A DNA stretch of 64,000 nt from Eubacterium sp. (GTDB lineage: Bacteria; Bacillota; Clostridia; Lachnospirales; Lachnospiraceae). Made by a program: the position numbers and the translations under genes. Below the pieces are notes generated by a model. That model had not been told where the DNA came from and made no database searches. It was given only the letters and a program-made list of their open reading frames with translations. Location of the stretch: NCBI GenBank assembly GCA_022764165.1, contig JALERM010000045.1, positions 25,552 through 89,551 of the forward strand, in the 5' to 3' direction. Below are positions 20,383 to 54,264 of this stretch, piece after piece (within the stretch, counting starts at the first letter, position 1; each line of letters starts with the position of its first letter).

Positions 20383-23152
20383 GTGCGACACGTTCGTAAG
20401 TGAAAAGCTTACGCACAAAGTCGAAGGGCAATTGTAGCCCGAAACTTTGGAGAACTGATATTCCGATGGGTGAAATGAGGGGGTAACGTCCCGAAGCGCC
20501 ACCCTAATACTCCGAATGGCGGGGAGCATGCAACGGCTCTCTCCAAAAGTTTATAGAGCTCGGTGAAGTCGGCAGAGAGCAACCGTAAGACTGGTTTTCA
20601 GACCAGACACGAAAGCTGTCCAGAGGTGGATGGTGTTGCCTATATGCCGGGGGTCGGATATCCATGGTGAGAATGTATGAAAATACTGACGAAATTCCGA
20701 ATGTACGAGTCTAAACGTTGATGCTGTCGAAAGGCAGTACACCTTTCATGGTGGTATCTGTGGGCGAGTAAAATTGGTTGTTATGAAAGTCCATGCATCG
20801 TTACAGGCGGTGCGGTTATGCATGACCAGATACAGGCTTAGAGGAAGAACCTAAAGATATCCAATGATAGGAATATCGGAACGTGGAAAGCTGGGGACAC
20901 GGAGGCGGTTGCAGGCCAGTGATGTGGTGGATGGGAATACCTTCGCGGGAGGGCAATAACCATTCTTTATTCCAGTGAGAGTAGTGGCACAGTACCTATG
21001 AAGCCGTGAATAAGTAAGCGGTGGAGGGATAGCCACAAGTCGAATTCAGCAATGAAAATGAAAACACAACAAACACAGCTTCGAGTATGACAAAGAAAAT
21101 CCAAACCGAAGGGAGAGGATGCCTGTGTTGACTTCGGGGCAGCAAGAAAGGAAAAGTAAACAGAGAAAAATCCGCAACTCAGAGTATTACGACATGGAAG
21201 GTACTTTTGACAGGCTGTATGCAGAAAGTAAGAAAGATAAAACCTTCAACCATCTGATGGAAATCATCGAGAGTGAAGAAAATATCAAGCTTGCATACAG
21301 AACGATAAAGAAGAATACAGGAAGTGATACTTCGGGAGTGGATAAAAGGACGATAGCCGACCTTGCAAAGTTAAGCGAGGAAGAATACGTCCGTCTCATA
21401 CGGAAACAATTCAGTAATTATCATCCACGACCCGTAAGGCGAGTGGAGATACCAAAGCCCAATGGAAAGACCAGACCTCTGGGAATTCCAACTATCGTAG
21501 ATCGGATCGTACAGCAATGTATTTTGCAGGTCATGGAGCCGATATGTGAAGCAAAATTCAGTGAGAACTCCAACGGGTTCCGCCCGAACCGTTCCGCTGA
21601 GACTGCTATTGCGCAATGCATGAGGCTGATACAGGTACAGCATCTGTACCATGTGGTTGACCTCGATATTAAAGGCTTCTTTGATAATATCAGCCATACA
21701 AAGCTGATTCGTCAGATATGGGCATTGGGAATCCGGGAAAAAAAGCTGTTATGCATTATAAAAGAGATGCTGAAAGCACCTGTTGTTCTGCCAAATGGAG
21801 AGAAAACATATCCCGCACGGGGTACCCCGCAAGGCGGTATTTTGTCGCCATTGCTTGCAAACATCGTATTGAATGAACTGGATTGGTGGATTGCTTCCCA
21901 GTGGGAGCAGATGCCAACAAAAACAAAATTCAAAACAAGGAGCAATGCGCAGGGAACAGAGATTAAGAGCCACGCCTACAGGGCTCTGCGTCGGAGCAGA
22001 TTAAAAGAGATGCATGCAGTTCGGTACGCAGATGATTTTAAAATTTTCTGCGCAACACATGAGGATGCTGTCAGAGCATACAAGGCAACAGAGTTATGGC
22101 TAAAGGACAGGCTGGGGCTGGAAATCAGCCCTGACAAATCCAAAGTAGTTAATCTCAAAAGACAGTATTCTGATTTTCTCGGGTTCAAACTGAAAGTCCG
22201 TAAAAAGGGTAAGAAATATGTAGTTCGGTCTCATATGAGCGATAAAGCATACAAAAAGGCTCATGAAAAAGTCTCGGAAGAAGTAAAGAAACTGGCTCAT
22301 TCGTCAGATGATAATGCTCAGTTCATGCAGCTTCAGAAATACAACTCTGTAGTTGCCGGACTTCATGAATACTATTGTATTTCTACAGAAGTATCTCATG
22401 ACTTCAGCAGACTTGCCTTCAGTATCAACAAACAGCTCAGAAACAGACTGAACGGCGACTTATCCAAAAAGGGACAGCTCAGAAATGGGTTCATTAAAGA
22501 AAAGTATGGAGCAAGCAGACAGATGAGGTTCCTTCATGGACGTCCGGTGGTTCCACTGGGATATGTCCAGTCAAAGAATGCCCAGCATAAAAGGAAATCC
22601 ATCAATAAATATACGGTCAAAGGTCGGGAACAGATTCATAAGAATCTTGCAATCGACACAGCGACAATGTTATGGCTGATGAGAAATCCTGTAAAGGGCA
22701 GAACCATTGAATATGCGGATAACCGTATTTCCTTGTATGCGGCACAATATGGTAAATGTGCAGTGACGGGAATTCCGATGGATTCCTATGATATTCACTG
22801 CCACCATAAAGTGCCGGTAAGCAATGGCGGTTCAGATGAATACGCAAATCTTATTCTTGTCAGCAAAGCGGTTCATATCCTTATCCATGCTTCTTCAGAA
22901 CCTACGATTGAAAAGTACCTGAAATCCTTAAATCTTGACAATAAACAAATGGAAAAGCTTAACAAACTCCGTACTATGGCAGAAATGCCACTTATTATTC
23001 TTTGAATTTAATGCTGTAACGAAGTGTGTAAGTTGTGTTTAAAAGCCCTGGACGGCTGAATTCGATGGAGCGCCGTGTGCGGTGAAAGTCGCATGCACGG
23101 TGTGGAGCGGGGGAAAATCCGGAGATAACTTCAAAGGATTACCTATCGCTAT
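20383..23152 (+). mobile_element. Group II intron inserted in maff2
   Basis: 5' GTGCGAC; IEP 21119-23005; domain V-like cgccgtgtgcGGTGAAAGTCgcatgcacggtg (23071-23102); 3' end ..CCTATCGCTAT; exons join in frame as GYGNDN-P-GAKSQGIKQLM. Confidence 0.92.
21119..23005 (+). CDS. ltrA: Group II intron reverse transcriptase/maturase with HNH endonuclease domain
   Basis: RT motifs (FDNISH, GTPQGGILSPLLANI, RYADDF) and C-terminal HNH (CAVTG..DIHCHHKVPVSNGGSDEYANL). Confidence 0.95.
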   Translation: MPVLTSGQQERKSKQRKIRNSEYYDMEGTFDRLYAESKKDKTFNHLMEIIESEENIKLAYRTIKKNTGSDTSGVDKRTIADLAKLSEEEYVRLIRKQFSNYHPRPVRRVEIPKPNGKTRPLGIPTIVDRIVQQCILQVMEPICEAKFSENSNGFRPNRSAETAIAQCMRLIQVQHLYHVVDLDIKGFFDNISHTKLIRQIWALGIREKKLLCIIKEMLKAPVVLPNGEKTYPARGTPQGGILSPLLANIVLNELDWWIASQWEQMPTKTKFKTRSNAQGTEIKSHAYRALRRSRLKEMHAVRYADDFKIFCATHEDAVRAYKATELWLKDRLGLEISPDKSKVVNLKRQYSDFLGFKLKVRKKGKKYVVRSHMSDKAYKKAHEKVSEEVKKLAHSSDDNAQFMQLQKYNSVVAGLHEYYCISTEVSHDFSRLAFSINKQLRNRLNGDLSKKGQLRNGFIKEKYGASRQMRFLHGRPVVPLGYVQSKNAQHKRKSINKYTVKGREQIHKNLAIDTATMLWLMRNPVKGRTIEYADNRISLYAAQYGKCAVTGIPMDSYDIHCHHKVPVSNGGSDEYANLILVSKAVHILIHASSEPTIEKYLKSLNLDNKQMEKLNKLRTMAEMPLIIL

Positions 23153-43967: not shown

Positions 43968-46900
43968 ATGGCAGGAAAAAGAGAACAGCAGATGAAGGAG
44001 ATCACGGAACGTCTGGAGCAGGGCGTGAAGAAACTGTTTACTTCGGAAAGGTATATGGAATATCTGAAAACGATGTCGCAGTTCCACAATTACAGTTTTA
44101 ATAATACGATGCTGATTGCTATGCAGAAACCAGATGCAACGCTAGTAGCAGGTTATCAGGCGTGGCAGAAGAAATTTAAGCGGCAGGTTAAGCGTGGGGA
44201 AAAAGGGATTCAGATTATTGCTCCGGCTCCTATCCGTGAAAAAGAAGAAGTAGAAAAATTTGATCCCGTTACAAATGAGCCGATCCTGCGTCCGGATGGA
44301 AAGCCGGAGACAGAGGAAATAGAGCATATTATTCCACGATTTCGTTTGACTACAGTTTTTGATATATCGCAGACTTATGGGGAGCCGCTGCCGGAACTGG
44401 AAACACCAGAGCTTATAGGGAGCGTGGAGAATTTTGAAATTTTTATGCAGGCAATCCGGGAAGTATCGCCTGTGCCTATCCGGTTTGATGAGATTGAGAG
44501 TGGTGCAAAGGGATATTACAGTAATGTGAATAAAGAAATCGTGATCCAGCAGGGCATGAGCGAGAGCCAGACCATGAAAACAGGCGTCCATGAAACTACC
44601 CATGCGAAGCTCCATGACCGGGACATTATGGAAGAATTGGGAGAGAAGAAAAACCAGATGACAAGGGAAGTGGAAGCGGAGAGTGTGGCCTATACGGTCT
44701 GCCAGTATTTCGGTCTGGACACTTCCGATTATTCCTTCCCGTATATCGCCGGGTGGAGCAGCAGCATGGATATGAAAGAACTGCGCTCCTCGATGGATAC
44801 AATACGGAAAACGGCGGGGGAAATGATTGATGGCATGACAGAAGTTATGCAGCGTCTCATGCGGGAGAGGCAGGAAAAAGAGCAGGCAGAGGAAAGAGAG
44901 AAAGCTGCGGAAAATACGGAACGGTATCAGGAAGTGGAGCTTTTTGATGTCCCGGCGCTATTTGCAAACGGGCGTGTGGAACTGGAAACACTTCCGGAAG
45001 GGATATACCGCTATGAGCTTCGGGGAACGGATAGTGATCCCGGCTATCCGTACAGTGTGGAGGAACATGTGACAGTTAACCATGCCGCAACCATCCTGAC
45101 CGCATTTCCATTGAATCTGCCGGAGGAAGGATGGCTGTTAATTGGCGATGAACTGAATTTTACCGGAGGGGATATGACAATCCATGAGTATCAGCAGACG
45201 GTGGCAGACAGAAGTATTGCTGTGGAACAGGAAAAAACGGAGAACGCCATAGGGAGGGCAAATGAAGAATTGTATCTGTCCGGGAAAGAGGACCGCTATG
45301 CGGTTTATCAGATTATCAGTGGGACAAAAGGGAAAGATTACCGATTTATGGGACTGGACTTTGTGGTTTCCCATGATATGAAAGTGGATGCGGCGGATTA
45401 TGGATATGTTTACGGCGGGCGTTTATCCGGGGAAGAAACACTGGATAGCTTGTATGAAAAATTCAATGTCAGCCATCCGGAAGGTTATGAGGGGCATTCC
45501 CTTTCTGTCAGTGATGTGGTTGTGCTGCAGAGGGAAGGAGAGGCAAAAGCCTACTATGTAGACAGTTTCGGGTTCCAGGAACTGCCGGATTTTGTGCAGG
45601 AACGCCTGCATGAAGCTAAAATGGACAGGAAACGTTGGTTTGCTCCTGTGACGTTGGATACGGATGCGGTGGAAATCGAGCAGCATGAGGGATTGTGGCA
45701 CGCTGTTGATAAGCGGGAAATACAGGATGAGATTTTTTATCTGATGAAACACAATGAGTATGGGGATTCGGCTGCCGCTGTGATTGTTGATTCCGAAGGA
45801 AATCTTGCGGCGCAGGAACTGGAAAACGGGTTTGATCGTGGAGCGATGGAAGCCATCAAAGAGTACCTTTCGGAAAAGGGGATAGAATGGGAACCGGGAG
45901 AAGCAGAGCTAAGAGAATTGGGAATAGAGGAGAAAACATTGCCGGAAACGGTATCAGAACAAAAAGTGTATCCTCCGATCTATCCCTATACCCTTGACTT
46001 TGCGGTGGAACACGCTGCCGCAGATGAGTATCTGGATTCCAGAAAATTAAATATTGACTGTAAAAATGCGGTAGAAAATGCTATCCGTACACATTTTGAC
46101 GGACTACACCTTGCCCATGACGCAGTAGATTCAGTGCTGGAAGAATATGGGCGGGAACGTCTTGCGTATGTCCTTGCCTGTACGGTACAGCATAAAGAAT
46201 CAGATGGGCGGTTTTCCAGAGGAACAAAAGAATGGGCCGCAAGTATTCCTGTTGCTGAAAATGTCAGCAGAGGCATGGACTTGAACAATGATTATGTGAT
46301 AGACAGCCATCCGGCTGTGTTGGATGGTTTTATCGGACTTGCCAGAGATAAGTTTGCGGAACTGGAGAAAATGGAGCAACAGAAAAAGGCAGAGCCATTT
46401 ATCGCACAGTATTATGTAGTAAACGATACCTATGGGATAAAGGCAGAAAGGGAATATCAGTATTTTCCTGATCTGGATTCTGCGCTTACGGCTTATATGT
46501 TGCTTCCTAACCATCTTGAAAAGGAAATTGGCATGGAAAGCACAGAGCAGCCACCTTCTCGTATGAGCTTGATTAAATGCCGGAATGGTCTGGAGGTATT
46601 GGAGGATATAGAAGCCGTCTCTTTGAGTGGGAAATGGATAAATACGGAAAGCAGGGAAGCAATGCGGATGGCGGAAATGTATCTGGATAACCATGATACG
46701 GAGATTGCCTACCATTTGGAAACAGCAGGACGGTATTTTTCTATTCAGACAGTATCGGAGGGGTATGACTATACGTTCTATGACAATCATTTCCGGGAGT
46801 TAGACGGCGGCATATATGATAATCCGGATATTTCTTTACAAGAGGCAATGAAGGATATTTTAGAGGATGAAGGGATGTCCTTGTCGGACTGTAAGGTAAT

Positions 46901-49124
46901 GGATTTTGAGGAACTGCAGGAGAAAGTCAATGAAGCAGAGCGGGAACGTGACGAGAAACCGCTGACAGTGGAATCTGTGACTGACCTAAAAGGAAGGAGA
47001 TATGAGTTTAATTCAGGAGCCAGGGAAGCCGTTTATGAATTTGATTGTCTGGTAAATGGGAAAACTGCCGTGCTGACATACACAGTGGGACAGAGGGAGC
47101 ATTTTCACAGCCCTCTCTATGATCGTGGAGAGATTGAGGATGTATTTTCAATCCATACGGACGGTGAGGATGTTTGGGACAGGATGCCAGAGCCTGAATT
47201 GGAAAAGTTGGAAAGGATACTGGCGGGAGAAGCAGAGGCATTTCTGATTGAGGAAAGAATTGCTGAAGCGAGTTCTATCCATGATCTGAAGGAAGTTGAT
47301 TATTATATGATGGATATGGAATCGACTTCTATGACGGATGTACAAAAGAAACGACTTTGGGACGGGATATGCGGTAGAGGAACCATCATTTTAGAGGAGG
47401 CATTAGCTAATGCTGTAAGCAGAGAAGAAATGCAGGGAGTCCGTGATTTACTTACGGCGGCAGAGAGCATTTTAGGAGAAGAACAGTATGAGAATCTGAT
47501 AACAGCAGTCCAAAAAAAGGAATCCGAATTGACAGAATCGAAAGATATTTCTCTTATTTCAGATATGACAAAACCGGAAAAATCTTTAGGAGGTCAGAGC
47601 CGGGCGGAGATTGAGGAAACGGTGCTTTGCTATGCACAGGCACAGATTGATGAAATGGGATTGACGGATGAAGTGAAGCTGCTTGGTGCCCGTGTTTATG
47701 GCAGCCGCACAAGATCAGGTCTGTACCATGATAATTCGGATATAGATGTGGTGCTTTCTTATACCGGGAATATCCATGAGGACAGTTTCTTTAACGCGCT
47801 GCATGAAGATGGTATGAAGATTGCAGGACTTCCACTTGACATCAACCCGATTTCGCTGGAAAAGACAGGGACACTGGAAGAATTTATGGAAAATGCCGGG
47901 AAATATCTGGATATGAAAGAAATACAGCATCTTACATCAGATATTGTAAGGTATGAGTTGGACTATGAACAGGACTTGGATATGCTGAAATTTTGGGATG
48001 GAGATGCGGAAATAGAAACGGAGCCAATTTACCAGGTGCATGAGATTATCGGAAAGGCACTTGAAAAAAAGGAGACTGACAAATTTGTAGAACATCTGGA
48101 ACAGGTTATACATGAACATGGAGCAGAGGAACCGATTGTAAAAGCAGCAGTGGATTTGTTAGGGAAAATTGCAGGAAAAATCGTTGTGGTTCTACCTGAT
48201 GCTAAAGTTGAGATTACTTCTGGGGAAGATAAAGAGATGCAGAAGCTGGCAGAAGAACTTGACAAGTTTGCCCGTGATATTGATCCGTATGAATATCAGG
48301 ATAACGTTGAGAATAGCGAGGATGGCTGCCTTTACATGATGGGATATATTGCAAATGGGGAAACGGAGGGCATTAAAGAACAGTTGGCACTGATTGCAGA
48401 AGAAAATGAAATTCCGGAGAATGTGGCAGAAGCAAAACGTCTGCTTTCCAGATTGGAATATATTGAAAAGCTACAGGCGGGAGTGGAACTGGCTAAAACA
48501 GAACCGGATTCAGAGCAAGTACCAAAGATTTCTTTCTATGTGGCGGAGTGCATGGAGTTTCCGATACTTGGGGAGTACCATGATAATCTGACACTGGAAG
48601 AAGCGGTACGAAAATATAATGAAATTCCGGCAGACAGAATGAATGGAGTGAAGGGCATTGGATTCCGTCTGGAAGATGGGAGTATGTATGACGGAGATTA
48701 TGAGCTGATGTCGGCAGGAACCATATCAAAAGATTTGATTGATCTTGTTCCTCATTACAAAGAAAGTCCGTTGGTACAGCAGGCAATTACCGATTTGGAG
48801 AAGTTACTTTCTGTCGGACAGCGGGAGATAGTTCAGAGACAACCGCAGGAAAAACAGGAAGATAATGCGGAAAAAAGCGTGCAAGAACCGCCATTATCGG
48901 AAGGTAAAGATAATAAGGCCGATACGGTGCGGGAAACAGCTCCAGAACCGTTAAAACAGTCTGAAAAGACACCGGAAAAGGACAATCCTATAGCAGAGGG
49001 ATTAGGAAGAAAACAGTCTGTTTTGAAAGCTCTCCGGGAACGGCAGGCAAAGCTGAAGGAGCAGGAACAGAAAAATACGGAACAGAAAGCACAGCGCCAT
49101 AAGAAGGGAGATCAGGAATTATGA
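43968..49124 (+). CDS. ArdC-like antirestriction protein fused to YodL-type repeats and a nucleotidyltransferase domain
   Basis: ArdC-like N-terminus (YSFNNTMLIAMQKPDATLVAGYQAWQKKFKRQVKRGEKGIQI), HETTHAKLH metallopeptidase motif, YodL-like blocks, MNT motif GSRTRSGLYHDNSDIDVVL. Confidence 0.88.
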   Translation: MAGKREQQMKEITERLEQGVKKLFTSERYMEYLKTMSQFHNYSFNNTMLIAMQKPDATLVAGYQAWQKKFKRQVKRGEKGIQIIAPAPIREKEEVEKFDPVTNEPILRPDGKPETEEIEHIIPRFRLTTVFDISQTYGEPLPELETPELIGSVENFEIFMQAIREVSPVPIRFDEIESGAKGYYSNVNKEIVIQQGMSESQTMKTGVHETTHAKLHDRDIMEELGEKKNQMTREVEAESVAYTVCQYFGLDTSDYSFPYIAGWSSSMDMKELRSSMDTIRKTAGEMIDGMTEVMQRLMRERQEKEQAEEREKAAENTERYQEVELFDVPALFANGRVELETLPEGIYRYELRGTDSDPGYPYSVEEHVTVNHAATILTAFPLNLPEEGWLLIGDELNFTGGDMTIHEYQQTVADRSIAVEQEKTENAIGRANEELYLSGKEDRYAVYQIISGTKGKDYRFMGLDFVVSHDMKVDAADYGYVYGGRLSGEETLDSLYEKFNVSHPEGYEGHSLSVSDVVVLQREGEAKAYYVDSFGFQELPDFVQERLHEAKMDRKRWFAPVTLDTDAVEIEQHEGLWHAVDKREIQDEIFYLMKHNEYGDSAAAVIVDSEGNLAAQELENGFDRGAMEAIKEYLSEKGIEWEPGEAELRELGIEEKTLPETVSEQKVYPPIYPYTLDFAVEHAAADEYLDSRKLNIDCKNAVENAIRTHFDGLHLAHDAVDSVLEEYGRERLAYVLACTVQHKESDGRFSRGTKEWAASIPVAENVSRGMDLNNDYVIDSHPAVLDGFIGLARDKFAELEKMEQQKKAEPFIAQYYVVNDTYGIKAEREYQYFPDLDSALTAYMLLPNHLEKEIGMESTEQPPSRMSLIKCRNGLEVLEDIEAVSLSGKWINTESREAMRMAEMYLDNHDTEIAYHLETAGRYFSIQTVSEGYDYTFYDNHFRELDGGIYDNPDISLQEAMKDILEDEGMSLSDCKVMDFEELQEKVNEAERERDEKPLTVESVTDLKGRRYEFNSGAREAVYEFDCLVNGKTAVLTYTVGQREHFHSPLYDRGEIEDVFSIHTDGEDVWDRMPEPELEKLERILAGEAEAFLIEERIAEASSIHDLKEVDYYMMDMESTSMTDVQKKRLWDGICGRGTIILEEALANAVSREEMQGVRDLLTAAESILGEEQYENLITAVQKKESELTESKDISLISDMTKPEKSLGGQSRAEIEETVLCYAQAQIDEMGLTDEVKLLGARVYGSRTRSGLYHDNSDIDVVLSYTGNIHEDSFFNALHEDGMKIAGLPLDINPISLEKTGTLEEFMENAGKYLDMKEIQHLTSDIVRYELDYEQDLDMLKFWDGDAEIETEPIYQVHEIIGKALEKKETDKFVEHLEQVIHEHGAEEPIVKAAVDLLGKIAGKIVVVLPDAKVEITSGEDKEMQKLAEELDKFARDIDPYEYQDNVENSEDGCLYMMGYIANGETEGIKEQLALIAEENEIPENVAEAKRLLSRLEYIEKLQAGVELAKTEPDSEQVPKISFYVAECMEFPILGEYHDNLTLEEAVRKYNEIPADRMNGVKGIGFRLEDGSMYDGDYELMSAGTISKDLIDLVPHYKESPLVQQAITDLEKLLSVGQREIVQRQPQEKQEDNAEKSVQEPPLSEGKDNKADTVRETAPEPLKQSEKTPEKDNPIAEGLGRKQSVLKALRERQAKLKEQEQKNTEQKAQRHKKGDQEL

Positions 49125-49351
49125 TGGTAAGATTTGAGGAAAATGAATATATGATGATGGCAATGTTCCAGAAGGAAAACCGTCAGCAGACTATGAGAGA
49201 AATCCGCAGCGTCATTCCTTTTGTAAAGGATGATGCGGAGATGCTTTCGCTCATTAACAGCACACTGGAAAAGATGGAGCATATTTCGGATCAGGAATTT
49301 TCCGGGATAGACCTGGAGCCATATAAGCAGGAGCCGATGGAGGACGAGTGA
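49124..49351 (+). CDS. Transposon-transfer assisting protein (TTRAP-like)
   Basis: MVRFEENEYMMMAMFQKENRQQTMREIRSVIPFV...LINSTLEKMEHISDQEF; family-typical position. Confidence 0.75.
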   Translation: MVRFEENEYMMMAMFQKENRQQTMREIRSVIPFVKDDAEMLSLINSTLEKMEHISDQEFSGIDLEPYKQEPMEDE

Positions 49352-50202
49352 TGGAGATCAACCAATTTGCCATATATCAGTTAAAGAATATGCCAGAAAA
49401 CCGGGGTATCCGGTTCCGTTCCTATGAAACGCTGCAGAAGAATCAAATCCAGGTGCGCTATGAAAACTACGAGCAGAAATATCTCGGACGGATGCTGCCG
49501 GGAGACACGCCGGGAAGCATCCGGGAACGGTTCCACAGGCAGACGCCCCGGAGGTTTCAGGGGCATTCTATCAGCGTCAGCGATGTATTGGTACTGAATC
49601 AGGATGGAGAAGTGACTGCCTATTATGTGGAAAAGGAAGGCTTCACGGTGATTGCTGGATTCATCCGCAATGGTTCGTCCGGAGCCTAGATTTCTTATGA
49701 TACTACGGATTTCCACATCGAGGGCAAAGAGGGGAGCTGGCTTGCCTATGACAGCATTATCATAGATGGGAAAGAGTTCTTCCTGATGGAGCATACCACT
49801 TATGGGAAAGAAGCTGCCAATGTGGTGTTGGACGAAGATGGGAAAGTAGTGGTGGATCAGGTTTATCATGGATTTGACGAGACTGTAAAGAAACAGATTA
49901 AAGAGTATCTGAATCCCACGCCATCTGTGCCGGAAACGGAAAAGCGGAAGCCGCCGATGGAGAACTGGCAGAAATACTATGAGAATGGGGAGTATCTGCG
50001 GAGTGCGGAAATGACGGAAGAACAAAACTATAATATGATCGACGGACGCATGAATAATCTTCCATTAAAGCCGAGAATAATGGGGAAACGGATTTCTGTG
50101 CTGGACAGACTGCATTTAAAACAGGCGGAGATTGCAAAGCGCAGTGGAAAGCCTGTACAGCAGATGGCAATGGCAGAGGATATGGAGCGTAGACGAAAAT
50201 AA
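49348..50202 (+). pseudogene. YodL-domain protein interrupted by one in-frame TAG
   Basis: Frames of 49348-49689 and 49786-50202 are the same (438 nt apart); homologous sequence continues across TAG 49687-49689: ...GSSGA*ISYDTTDFHIEGKEGSWLAYDSIIIDGKEFFLMEHTTYG... Confidence 0.75.
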
Positions 50203-50203
50203 T

Positions 50204-50250
50204 AAAAAAGGAAGATGTTTGCCCTTGCGTGGCGGCATCTTCCCTTTTTT
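50204..50250. terminator. Bidirectional intrinsic terminator between convergent genes
   Basis: AAAAAAGGAAGATG...CATCTTCCCTTTTTT. Confidence 0.85.
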
Positions 50251-51193
50251 ATGGAGTTAATCGGTAGCGGGTAATATCTTTCCAGTTTGGTGGGAAACCC
50301 ATCCGATTAAGAAGTTCAGTATTGTCAATATGGATAAGATTTTTTGAGGTATGGTCAATTAACGTAGATAACTTCCGTTTGAAAACCTGAAAATCTTTAC
50401 CTGGAATCAGATAGCGAAAGGCAATCACAACGGCAAACAAATCATTTTTTCCATATTGATATTGGATTCCATTCATCGGTATTGAAAGTTTTTTATGTAA
50501 TGGCAAATCAGAAATATTATCTATTGTCCGATAGGTAAATAAGCGTTCTCCGTGAGCGCATACGTTTCTGAACTTTGTCAGCACAGATAAAAATTGTTCC
50601 ATCTGGCGTCTGTTAATGATACCGAAATTTTTGCATACTTTGGACTGTAGGGATTGCGGAAATACTTTATACATTTTTGAAAGATTTCCAAAGGTCAGGA
50701 CGTTAATTAATACCCATAAGGGGATATTTCCATAAGTGGCTCTATAATAATTGATGTATTCGTAATCAGTAGTTGAAGCTGCCCTTTGCAAGGTTGCGAT
50801 TAAACGGACAACAGTTTTATGATTTTTCCGGCTGTTGTTGAAATTATTTTCGTCCAGATAAGCGGATTGTGCTTCTCCATATTGTTCTGAAAAATAGTAT
50901 GACATCAAAGAACGGAGATGCCGTTCTATTTGCAGCAGATATTTGAAAAACAATTCTCTAAGTTCTTTATCGAACTCATAGAGAGAAACAATTTCTTCAA
51001 AGGAAGTACCATTTTTATATTTCTTTGTTAATGGAATACGGAATAAATGCTTATAGCCGCCCATTAAGGGAAAATAACCAATGCGTTTCAAAATATCTTC
51101 CGCATACTGCTTATCTGAAATGATAATATGCTTTTCTTCATGGAGCCATTCAACCTGTTCCGAAAAAGTGGAAAATTTCTTTTGTGGCAACAT
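50249..51193 (-). CDS. Abi_2-family (AbiD/AbiF-like) abortive infection protein with HEPN motif
   Basis: ATG at 51193 with RBS AAGGAG; FDKELRELFFKYLLQIERHLRSLMSYYFSEQYG and RNVCAHGERLF (R-x4-H). Confidence 0.87.
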   Translation of the reverse strand: MLPQKKFSTFSEQVEWLHEEKHIIISDKQYAEDILKRIGYFPLMGGYKHLFRIPLTKKYKNGTSFEEIVSLYEFDKELRELFFKYLLQIERHLRSLMSYYFSEQYGEAQSAYLDENNFNNSRKNHKTVVRLIATLQRAASTTDYEYINYYRATYGNIPLWVLINVLTFGNLSKMYKVFPQSLQSKVCKNFGIINRRQMEQFLSVLTKFRNVCAHGERLFTYRTIDNISDLPLHKKLSIPMNGIQYQYGKNDLFAVVIAFRYLIPGKDFQVFKRKLSTLIDHTSKNLIHIDNTELLNRMGFPPNWKDITRYRLTP

Positions 51194-51205
51194 TTTTTTC
51201 TCCTT

Positions 51206-51277
51206 AAACAAAAGAGGGAGAGACCCGCAGGTTCTCCCCCGGTCACGGGCTTCGCAAGTTTCCGTAACACGATCACT
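51206..51277 (-). ncRNA. Candidate structured small RNA upstream of the abi gene
   Basis: Bounded by a consensus promoter and an intrinsic terminator; stem GUUACGG/CCGUGAC with inner CUU-GCG-AAG; then GGGAGAACC-UGCG-GGU(C)UCUCCC-UCUUUUGUUU. Confidence 0.55.
51216..51238 (-). terminator. Intrinsic terminator/attenuator inside the abi leader
   Basis: GGGAGA/UCUCCC outer stem with ACC/GGU inner stem, then UCUUUUGUUU. Confidence 0.75.
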
Positions 51278-51283
51278 GAGTCT

Positions 51284-51312
51284 AATATAGCAGGATTGAC
51301 GGAAAAAGTCAA
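51284..51312 (-). promoter_or_regulatory. SigA-type promoter for candidate sRNA/abi
   Basis: TTGACT - 17 nt - TATATT on the minus strand. Confidence 0.75.
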
Positions 51313-51422
51313 TACGCTGGTTCAACTCTGTGTTAGTATATGCCGTATTACCGGAAAAGATACCAGAGAGTGCGTCAGAGAATAAAAATAAGCCTGATCC
51401 TGTGTGAGAGTAGCGATCAGAC

Positions 51423-51623
51423 TTAATCTTTATAATGTGTCGCAATATCCTCAATATTACAATCCAGAATATTGCATAGAGTATTTATAGTGTTCATGCT
51501 TACGCCTTCATTATTTTGCAAGCGATGAAGCAGAGATTTGCTGAAATGATATTCTTTATGCAACGTATATTTAGTTATGCCTTTGGATTTCATGGTATCC
51601 CACAGTTTGTCATACTTTATCAT
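51423..51623 (-). CDS. Small XRE-family regulator
   Basis: MIKYDKLWDTMKSKGITKYTLHKEYHFSKSLLHRLQNNEGVSMNTINTLCNILDCNIEDIATHYKD. Confidence 0.82.
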   Translation of the reverse strand: MIKYDKLWDTMKSKGITKYTLHKEYHFSKSLLHRLQNNEGVSMNTINTLCNILDCNIEDIATHYKD

Positions 51624-52250: not shown

Positions 52251-53900
52251 CTAAGATATATCCTGGTTCTTTTCCTGTTCGGGATGTTTAGCATGATTTT
52301 TTCCTAAAATCATATCCACGTTTGTACAGACAGTTTTTAGTTCGTTTTGATAACCTCGCAGATTTTGGTAGGCTTCATATTGAGTATTTTTCAGAGCAGT
52401 TAGTTTTTCTTTTTCTGCCTTTAGTGTTTTCATTGATGGCAGTTTGCCGCTATCAGATTTTTCTTTTAAAATACGGTGGGCAGTTTCATAAAGTGTAATT
52501 TCAGACAGGTGTTCCTGACGGAATTGTTTCTTGTTTTTGGATTTCAGAAATTGCCCATATACAGATTTATTTGCCAGATATTGTCCGGTATAATGAATCT
52601 GCTCATTGACTTCTTTTAACTGTTGCTCTGTGGAACGCAGGGCTTTACGAATTTCGGTGGTTTGCTCCTGTGCTTCGGAAAACGCTGTCAGCAAATCTTC
52701 CTGCGTATCATATCCATGTTCCTGCACATAGGCAACCGTTTTTGCCATTTGTTGTAAATTGGACAATTTTACACGTCTGGCATATGCGTCACTTTGCTGT
52801 GCCTTGACACAATGCTGCAGATATACAACGAGGCGGAGATCAGACTTAATGAAAATAAAAGCAGGAATGTCTGTCTTTATGGTTTCACCATGTGGGAGAC
52901 TATTTTTCGTAAGAGTATTATCTACCAATGGTGATTCTGATAAGTTCTTTTGTCTTTGCTGTTCTGCATTTCGTTCAAATAATGTAAGCAGATAATCCTT
53001 TTCATAATGTGTACCGAGGTTCCTGCCTGTGATCGGTTTGCTGCGTTCTGGGTGGAGATAACTAAACCGGCCACGGCTGATTTTGAGAGTAACATGGTAA
53101 TTTTCCGCAAGTAGTTGCTGAAACTCGTCCAGATTGCCGGCAGAAGCAGCAGCATTTTCAATCGCTGTCCGGAGAAATTCTTTCTGAGTCTGATATTTGG
53201 TCTGGCGGGGAGTAATGCCTTCGGATTGCATCTGTTTGTTGCGTTCATTTAGTTTTTTCTGCCCTCTGCGGTTTGCATGATATTCACGATCTGAAATTTT
53301 CTTTTCAGCAGGAGTAAGCAAATCTACCTGGTGGAAATGTTCCCGATGGCACATATCCATGACAGATTGTTTTAAGTGAATTAGATAATTTTTAGTCAAA
53401 TGATGTTTGCATCCGGCACGGTATTCGCTTCTTTGCGTCATAAAAGGTTGTTTTTCTATATCGTATTTCCGAAGGCTGTTAATTACAATATGCACATGAA
53501 TGTTGCCGCTTTCATTGTGACCGTCTGTATGGGTACAGACAAGGGCCTGATGTCCGGGAAAATTCTTTTTTGCATATTCCAGTCCCAGTTGTTGTGCTTG
53601 TTCTCCGGTCAAGCCATTTTCCGTCACATCTTTCGGATCAAAGCTAAGGATGTAGTGGTGGGACTTGATTTCGTTGTATTTCTGGTTTTTATGATATTTT
53701 TCGTTTAACTCCCTACACTCTAAATCAAAAGTGAATGGATCACAGTTTATCCCATCAAGATAATATTCCTCACGGGGAATCAGCTCACCATTCTCATCAA
53801 GAATGGGTTTATTGGTATACTCATCATACTGGAACATGAGATACCGCTGTGCTTCTCCATAATCAGCATTTTTACTCGTTATATGTTTCAGTATCGCCAT
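52251..53900 (-). CDS. mobA: Relaxase/mobilization nuclease
   Basis: Relaxase His motif HTDGHNESGNIHVHIVINSLR; coupled to mobC. Confidence 0.92.
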   Translation of the reverse strand: MAILKHITSKNADYGEAQRYLMFQYDEYTNKPILDENGELIPREEYYLDGINCDPFTFDLECRELNEKYHKNQKYNEIKSHHYILSFDPKDVTENGLTGEQAQQLGLEYAKKNFPGHQALVCTHTDGHNESGNIHVHIVINSLRKYDIEKQPFMTQRSEYRAGCKHHLTKNYLIHLKQSVMDMCHREHFHQVDLLTPAEKKISDREYHANRRGQKKLNERNKQMQSEGITPRQTKYQTQKEFLRTAIENAAASAGNLDEFQQLLAENYHVTLKISRGRFSYLHPERSKPITGRNLGTHYEKDYLLTLFERNAEQQRQKNLSESPLVDNTLTKNSLPHGETIKTDIPAFIFIKSDLRLVVYLQHCVKAQQSDAYARRVKLSNLQQMAKTVAYVQEHGYDTQEDLLTAFSEAQEQTTEIRKALRSTEQQLKEVNEQIHYTGQYLANKSVYGQFLKSKNKKQFRQEHLSEITLYETAHRILKEKSDSGKLPSMKTLKAEKEKLTALKNTQYEAYQNLRGYQNELKTVCTNVDMILGKNHAKHPEQEKNQDIS

Positions 53901-54264
53901 GAAATTCCCCCGCCAGTTTTAACACTTCATACTTCATTTCGTAAATTCGTGCAATGCTCTGATTGATTGCTTTTCTCATTTCCTGTGAATGGATGCCGCC
54001 GCTGTTAAAGTGGCGTGCGATCTGATTCAGATTGCTGCCTATTTTTCCGAACTCACCAATCAGCTTTTTCAATTCTGGCAAATCTGCCACAAGCTCATAT
54101 TTTACAATTACCTTTTTATTCATTATCTGCTTACGGGCATATTCTGCGAGTGAGAGGTTTGCGGCCTTTGCATTTGCGGCAACAATCTCATATTCAGTGT
54201 CTGTAAGACGGAGCATAATCTGATGATTGTGTCGTAGTTCTTTTTCTTTTTTTGGTCTTGCCAT
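53872..54264 (-). CDS. mobC: Plasmid mobilization relaxosome protein MobC
   Basis: RHNHQIMLRLTDTEYEIVAANAKAANLSLAEYARKQI...GKIGSNLNQIARHFNSG. Confidence 0.9.
   Translation of the reverse strand: MARPKKEKELRHNHQIMLRLTDTEYEIVAANAKAANLSLAEYARKQIMNKKVIVKYELVADLPELKKLIGEFGKIGSNLNQIARHFNSGGIHSQEMRKAINQSIARIYEMKYEVLKLAGEFHGDTETYNE

Follow-up and report, generated by a model that had tools for sequence, protein, structure and literature searches.

Does the short RNA that seems to precede an abi gene in this DNA really exist, and is it the partner of the Abi protein? A preliminary description of the window (the whole 64,000-nt stretch that we analyzed) had placed an RNA of about 70 nt, with its own promoter and terminator, in front of a HEPN Abi gene. 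It had suggested that this RNA either neutralizes or guides the protein. We call the RNA R1, and the features of the locus are:

51307..51312 (-): -35 element TTGACT; its position is kept in 51/55 abi-linked homologues
51284..51289 (-): -10 element TATATT, extended (TGC before it), ending 6 nt 5' of the first RNA base
51210..51277 (-): R1 RNA, 68 nt; 96.1 bits with the R1 covariance model, supported by covariation, no Rfam family
51242..51268 (-): hairpin 1, with a 7-bp outer helix GUUACGG/CCGUGAC, an AAA/C internal loop, and an inner CUU-GCG-AAG
51206..51240 (-): hairpin 2 and the UCUUUUGUUU tail, an intrinsic terminator ahead of abi
51200..51205 (-): ribosome binding site (RBS) of abi, AAGGAG, read from the sequence
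50249..51193 (-): abi gene, 314 aa, encoding an Abi_2 / AbiD-AbiF HEPN protein (putative RNase toxin), from profile matches
50552..50569 (-): HEPN catalytic motif RNVCAH, residues 209-214, aligning with RNSCCH of 8vz6

From 5' to 3', R1 consists of a single-stranded AGUGAUC, hairpin 1, the terminator hairpin, and the U-tract. (The window RNA is itself among the sequences used to build the model that gives it 96.1 bits.) The promoter, TTGACT-17-TATATT with TG preceding the -10 element, spans 51312-51284 on the minus strand, and transcription is predicted to start at 51277, where the conserved RNA begins. When folded, the window sequence gives two hairpins: GUUACGG/CCGUGAC around a small inner hairpin, and then the terminator hairpin.

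Taken by itself, this evidence is weak. The fold energy is only modestly better than that of shuffled sequences (z of -1.9 to -2.3; 3-10 out of 200 shuffles do equally well), and the region holds no surplus of promoter-like sites (5 found, 8.1 expected). Because of these two results, the features of a single window sequence might be due to chance. It is the homologues, and not the fold or the promoter of the lone sequence, that decide whether the RNA is real.

A protein search of bacterial genomes recovered 54 loci. All of the close relatives (at least 67% identity) with an available leader have the identical type of RNA before abi, starting with AGUGAUC and ending with a terminator, and R1 persists down to 43-56% protein identity, including in a Treponema MAG. 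Across 21 sequences, 96% of the cells are paired, and 11 of the 21 pairs show double-sided changes, as compared to 3.4 in shuffles; none of 500 shuffles scored as high. An extended set of sequences agrees with this result, and the signal disappears if the pairing partner is shifted by 1-3 columns. Within hairpin 1, 98.5% of the cells are paired and 5 of the 7 pairs have double changes, which also holds if phage copies are added. Conservation within R1 peaks in the 5' tail and the loops rather than in the terminator alone.

We then used the R1 covariance model to collect further copies. A promoter (at least 9/12 matches) with its -10 element ending 3-7 nt before A1 of AGUGAUC was present in 51 of 55 abi-linked copies, while 1.6 would be expected from shuffles. 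Among the 53 copies that score 8 or more, this distance is 6 nt in 43. Judging from sequence alone, these are sigma-A-type promoters, and because their position before A1 is fixed, A1 is the likely transcription start (+1).

Thus, most of the preliminary description of the locus held. The RNA with its own promoter and terminator before a HEPN Abi gene is confirmed by sequence, strand, coordinates, and homologues; so are the promoter with a start near 51277, the fold, and the length (modeled as about 68 nt). The checks it proposed on the leaders of homologues, for conservation and for covariation, have been run: the RNA is kept from AGUGAUC to the U-tract, with compensatory changes (0/500 shuffles). 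But the terminator does not end about 7 nt before the RBS, as had been stated. The U-tract runs straight into AAGGAG with no gap.

We also considered that the conserved leader might encode an N-terminal extension of Abi (an open frame of 401 aa), and we rejected this. The frame between the RNA and the ATG varies, with in-frame stops in 8 of 15 cases. Since that frame is not kept, the conserved stretch is not protein.

How is abi expressed? Only 16 nt separate the modeled end of R1 from the ATG at 51193, and across R1 copies this spacer is typically 14-31 nt, so there is no room for abi to have its own promoter. We infer that abi must be made by read-through, which has been mapped for RCd22-abiF (PMC12373285). 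The proposal that read-through sets the ratio of toxin to RNA is supported to this extent: the 16-nt spacing implies read-through into abi.

The protein clearly belongs to Abi_2 (PF07751, 179.6 bits against a cut-off of 25.6; Pfam 1e-52), and it also matches PADLOC's AbiD (236.7 bits, 9.7e-71). Its nearest solved relative in the PDB is the AbiF protein 8vz6 (E 3e-20), from the structure of PbAbiF with its ncRNA (PMC12737573). R209, N210, C212, A213, and H214 are invariant among 23 homologues, so the earlier reading of RNVCAH as a HEPN RNase motif holds. The window protein is only about 24-31% identical to those Abi_2 proteins whose leaders carry a classical abiF-type RNA. (The same assembly has a second Abi_2 gene, L002 at G000:C153, without an R1 leader. 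The sequence upstream of it is Bacteroidota-like, and its contig could possibly be a contaminant.)

The surroundings in the window, at 51423-51623(-), 52251-54264(-), and 43968-50202(+), are those of a mobilizable element. The neighbors include an HTH_26 regulator, a MobA/VirD2-type relaxase, a NikA/MobC-like protein, and an LPD18/DUF4316 protein. One homologous locus (L008) has the same island layout as the window, and in another (L023) abi-R1 sits between unrelated chromosomal genes. From the gene content, the abi-R1 pair is probably cargo on a mobilizable element of a gut bacterium.

Is R1 a known RNA? AbiF-type Abi_2 proteins are associated with the abiF RNA (RF03085), but RF03085 does not match the window RNA even at E<=10. 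In the same library, RF03085 does match the leaders of L050, L071 (phiC2, the RCd22 type), and L072; the matched leaders include those from phiC2, Exiguobacterium, and Oligella. When we scanned the window and the locus with Rfam, only group II introns reached the gathering score. (These are at 20450-20661 and 23068-23152 on the plus strand, RF02004 and RF00029.) A candidate match of freshwater-2 at the locus was rejected, as it had 19.4 bits where 49.9 are needed and lay mostly over the RBS. R1 is a previously uncatalogued class of RNA that is absent from Rfam. The preliminary description's pairing of an AbiF-type protein with a non-coding RNA therefore held only in part, as the RNA is not the known AbiF ncRNA.

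To see how R1 is distributed, we used 396 genomes from the window's family (the family sample). Abi_2 is found in 122 of these genomes and R1 in 70. Among the 150 Abi_2 matches listed, 46 are immediately preceded by R1; conversely, 47 of the 93 R1 matches directly precede Abi_2, with the domain usually starting 107-126 nt further on. In a tree of 160 Abi_2 proteins, the 49 R1-carrying proteins form one clade (support 0.979), so that R1 requires a single change of label. (The 49 are 48 R1-linked proteins and L218, whose R1 copy is downstream of the gene.) More broadly, eight classes of leader RNA on 91 tips require seven switches, which is the minimum possible. The R1 class is strictly inherited with one clade of proteins. 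As a side observation, one locus (L141) has two R1 RNAs in direct tandem, at 248-315 and 316-383, ahead of one abi, which recalls the ToxI-type repeats.

Other Abi_2 leaders fall into further recognizable classes, of the AACAGAGUUGCC, UCCGGUGUCC, CCGURGGAAGGC, GAAUGACUG, AAGCGUACGACG, and GAGAUGACUAGC types. At least six further types of leader RNA precede other Abi_2 clades (L198, L204, L209, L223, L234, L238, L257, and their relatives), and Rfam had no match to these classes in the loci that we scanned. Some RF03085-like leaders score slightly below the RF03085 cut-off. A caveat is that the non-R1 labels rest on simple sequence patterns and many leaders are unassigned, so these labels are a lead and not a curated classification. 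Also, several Abi_2 clades have no recognizable leader RNA, so the RNA is not obligatory across the family.

In the family sample, 46 of the 93 R1 matches, or about half, have no Abi_2 after them. This is evidence against a fixed pair, and it implies that the RNA can persist alone. Ten of these 46 have fragments of abi directly downstream, two are at the ends of contigs, and a few are additional copies found 3' of abi. There remain about 26 bacterial copies without any trace of abi, one of which is from a wider sample of the phylum. In these solo copies, all 182 of the helix-1 cells pair, and wherever a pair has changed relative to the nearest abi-linked copy, it is still a standard one (32 of 32 pairs; 6.9 expected). 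This pairing test is biased upwards, as the model search favors paired sequences. The promoter is at its standard place in 15 of 28 scored copies that are not abi leaders (26 solos and two copies downstream of abi), while 0.7 would be expected. We did not find a common partner gene among the neighbors of the solo RNAs. In two genomes (L105:1501-1567(-) and L151:1667-1733(-)), a solo R1-like RNA is followed, 217 nt further downstream, by a gene for a zeta-toxin-like P-loop protein (MKKFTIVAGVNGAGKST); neither RNA has a clear promoter.

R1 is also found in phages. We scanned viral contigs with sequence patterns and checked the hits with the R1 model. Some viral records have both R1 and abi (such as L286, L290, and L297), and fourteen have R1 with no Abi_2 anywhere in the record, although these records may be fragments. 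A few viral copies are divergent or truncated (L295, 16.6 bits; L307, 38.3; L309, 35.2). In most of the viral records that we examined, the neighbors are phage genes: terminase and portal (L278, L295), portal (L307, L309), a PhoH-like protein and the head protease (L298), the tape measure protein (L292), integrase and DnaD (L299), or a PurZ-like synthetase (L308). Five copies, in records without Abi_2, lie within tRNA arrays, between tRNA-Met and tRNA-Arg:

L298:2474-2540(-): R1 in a tRNA array
L300:5228-5294(-): R1 in a tRNA array
L301:4092-4158: R1 in a tRNA array
L278:202-268: R1 in a tRNA array
L282:5598-5664: R1 in a tRNA array

The first three and the last two represent two related phage lineages. 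In these array copies, R1 begins with the base that follows the CCA encoded by the tRNA-Met gene and ends two bases before tRNA-Arg; the copies have lost the U-tract and retained hairpin 2. Their position in the array points independently to A1 as the mature 5' end. Between the two lineages, R1 is 91% identical, whereas the flanking tRNAs are 59-63% identical and the neighboring exonuclease is 36% identical. Elsewhere, hairpin 1 adjoins tRNA-Asn (L307), and an R1-like hairpin follows tRNA-Ser (L295). Over bacterial and phage copies together, helix 1 covaries (98.4% paired; 0/500 shuffles). BLAST of the phage RNA against an annotated phage collection gave no match, so we cannot name a host. The presence and the conservation of the phage copies are established. 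By analogy with pseudo-ToxI, we lean towards the view that they are decoy antitoxins against Abi, but their activity is inferred.

Putting this together, the locus is very likely an AbiF-type pair of an RNA antitoxin and a HEPN RNase toxin, with a new class of RNA, carried by a mobilizable element; this rests on inference from the sequences and on analogy. What is shown at the locus is its anatomy, the covariation, the fixed promoter, the linkage to a single clade, and the HEPN motif. Binding, toxicity, neutralization, and triggering by phage are inferred from RCd22-AbiF and PbAbiF. These precedents are only analogies because the protein is about 24-31% identical to the classical-leader proteins and the RNA is not matched by RF03085. 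In the proposed mechanism, the sigma-A-type promoter would start a ~68-nt RNA at 51277, and with the majority of transcripts ending at the terminator, R1 would be in excess, while read-through would yield a small amount of Abi_2 mRNA. R1 (the 5' AGUGAUC tail, the bulged hairpin, and, as the 3' portion, hairpin 2) would bind the protein dimer and hold the HEPN RNase off. Phage infection would disturb the pair, free the RNase, and stop growth.

An alternative is that the leader is only a cis-acting attenuator, or a riboswitch-like terminator, that senses a signal, controls read-through into abi, and never binds the protein. The conserved terminator right before the RBS fits with this idea, and premature termination at RCd22 likewise represses abiF in cis (PMC12373285). 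But an attenuator would not explain the copies without an abi remnant or the promoters of copies that are not abi leaders. Nor would it explain the phage copies in tRNA arrays, which have lost the U-tract and have no abi downstream, or why the 5' tail and the loops, beyond the terminator alone, are the most conserved parts. We consider it unlikely. Even less likely is a guide role for R1, in which it would bring the HEPN RNase to its target RNAs, as in a proto-Cas13 system. Abi_2 proteins are structural relatives of the HEPN domains of Cas13 (PMC12165695), but R1 has no variable or spacer-like segment, and, apart from the terminator, its unpaired parts are largely conserved between genera.

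Another alternative is that the abi-less copies in phages and bacteria have a role unrelated to Abi, such as small-RNA regulation, and that the abi-linked copies were captured secondarily. The many matches in the family sample without abi would fit. However, one RNA class is tied to a single clade of proteins, the abi fragments downstream of ten copies point to loss of abi, and the solo copies share no common neighbor, except for the two zeta-toxin-like cases. We think that this is unlikely as well. Of the two roles that the preliminary description had offered, guiding the protein is not supported, and neutralizing it is the best reading; toxicity and neutralization are inferred, without an experiment on this locus.

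The locus in the window is a known kind of system with a new RNA, and it is the phage and solo copies that are the main reason for interest. A bolder reading, which we favor by a narrow margin, is that the phage copies are decoys (some with tRNA-like maturation), that the bacterial solo copies confer immunity to incoming Abi toxins, and that Abi_2 clades each have their own, mostly uncatalogued, class of RNA. The phage copies lead to an arms-race prediction: a 68-nt RNA from a phage should alleviate the toxicity of a named bacterial toxin. Should this hold, the tRNA arrays of phages would be a place to seek RNA-based anti-defense elements. AbiF-type proteins have been proposed as ancestors of Cas13, and their RNAs as precursors of guide RNAs. 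A second RNA class that is strictly co-inherited, with at least six more that are unlisted, provides material on how the protein recognizes RNA and on the exchange of partners.

The closest known system is RCd22-AbiFCd from the C. difficile phages phi027/phiC2. Toxicity, binding of the RNA, neutralization in trans, and the need for the R and H were all shown there (PMC12373285). As in the window, there is a SigA promoter, a short terminated RNA, read-through, and an Abi_2 protein with RNxCAH. But RCd22 has two RF03085 motifs in ~100-130 nt, while R1 is a 68-nt RNA of a different class with one such hairpin and no RF03085 match, and the window protein is 28% identical to the phiC2 protein. In the PbAbiF-AbiFr complex (PDB 8vz6; Zilberzwige-Tal et al., via PMC12373285 and PMC12737573), the protein is homologous, including the HEPN R and H, and it binds one RNA per monomer (PMC12737573). 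The RF03085 RNA, like R1, is a small bulged hairpin that immediately precedes Abi_2 genes. In several RF03085-type leaders (L050, L072), the outer stem leads into the U-tract and, from the sequence, apparently doubles as the terminator; in contrast, R1 has AGUGAUC and the GGAAACUUGCGAAGCC hairpin plus a separate terminator.

Compared to type III toxin-antitoxin systems, the window shares the upstream RNA gene, the single promoter, and the terminator between the RNA and the toxin. Neutralizing binding of a toxic RNase has been shown only in relatives (PMC12373285) and is an analogy here. The tandem RNA repeats of ToxIN are absent from the window locus, which has a single copy, and they are not a feature of RCd22/AbiFr-type members either. 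Cas13-like systems are defined by a variable spacer or guide segment, and R1 has no variable unpaired segment.

For the phage copies, the lytic cyanophage S-CREM1 carries a classical RF03085 abiF sRNA (PMC9964418), which is a different class from R1, and the relevant sections of that paper do not propose an anti-Abi role for it. The pseudo-ToxI of phage PhiTE is a demonstrated phage strategy, a decoy of an antitoxin RNA (PMC3475682), and RNA anti-CRISPRs are phage RNA copies that act as anti-defense (PMC10651486). Like phage R1, both are phage-encoded copies of a defense RNA without the effector gene. They mimic ToxI or CRISPR repeats, whereas the R1 copies look like an RNA that is linked to Abi_2, and they can sit within tRNA arrays.
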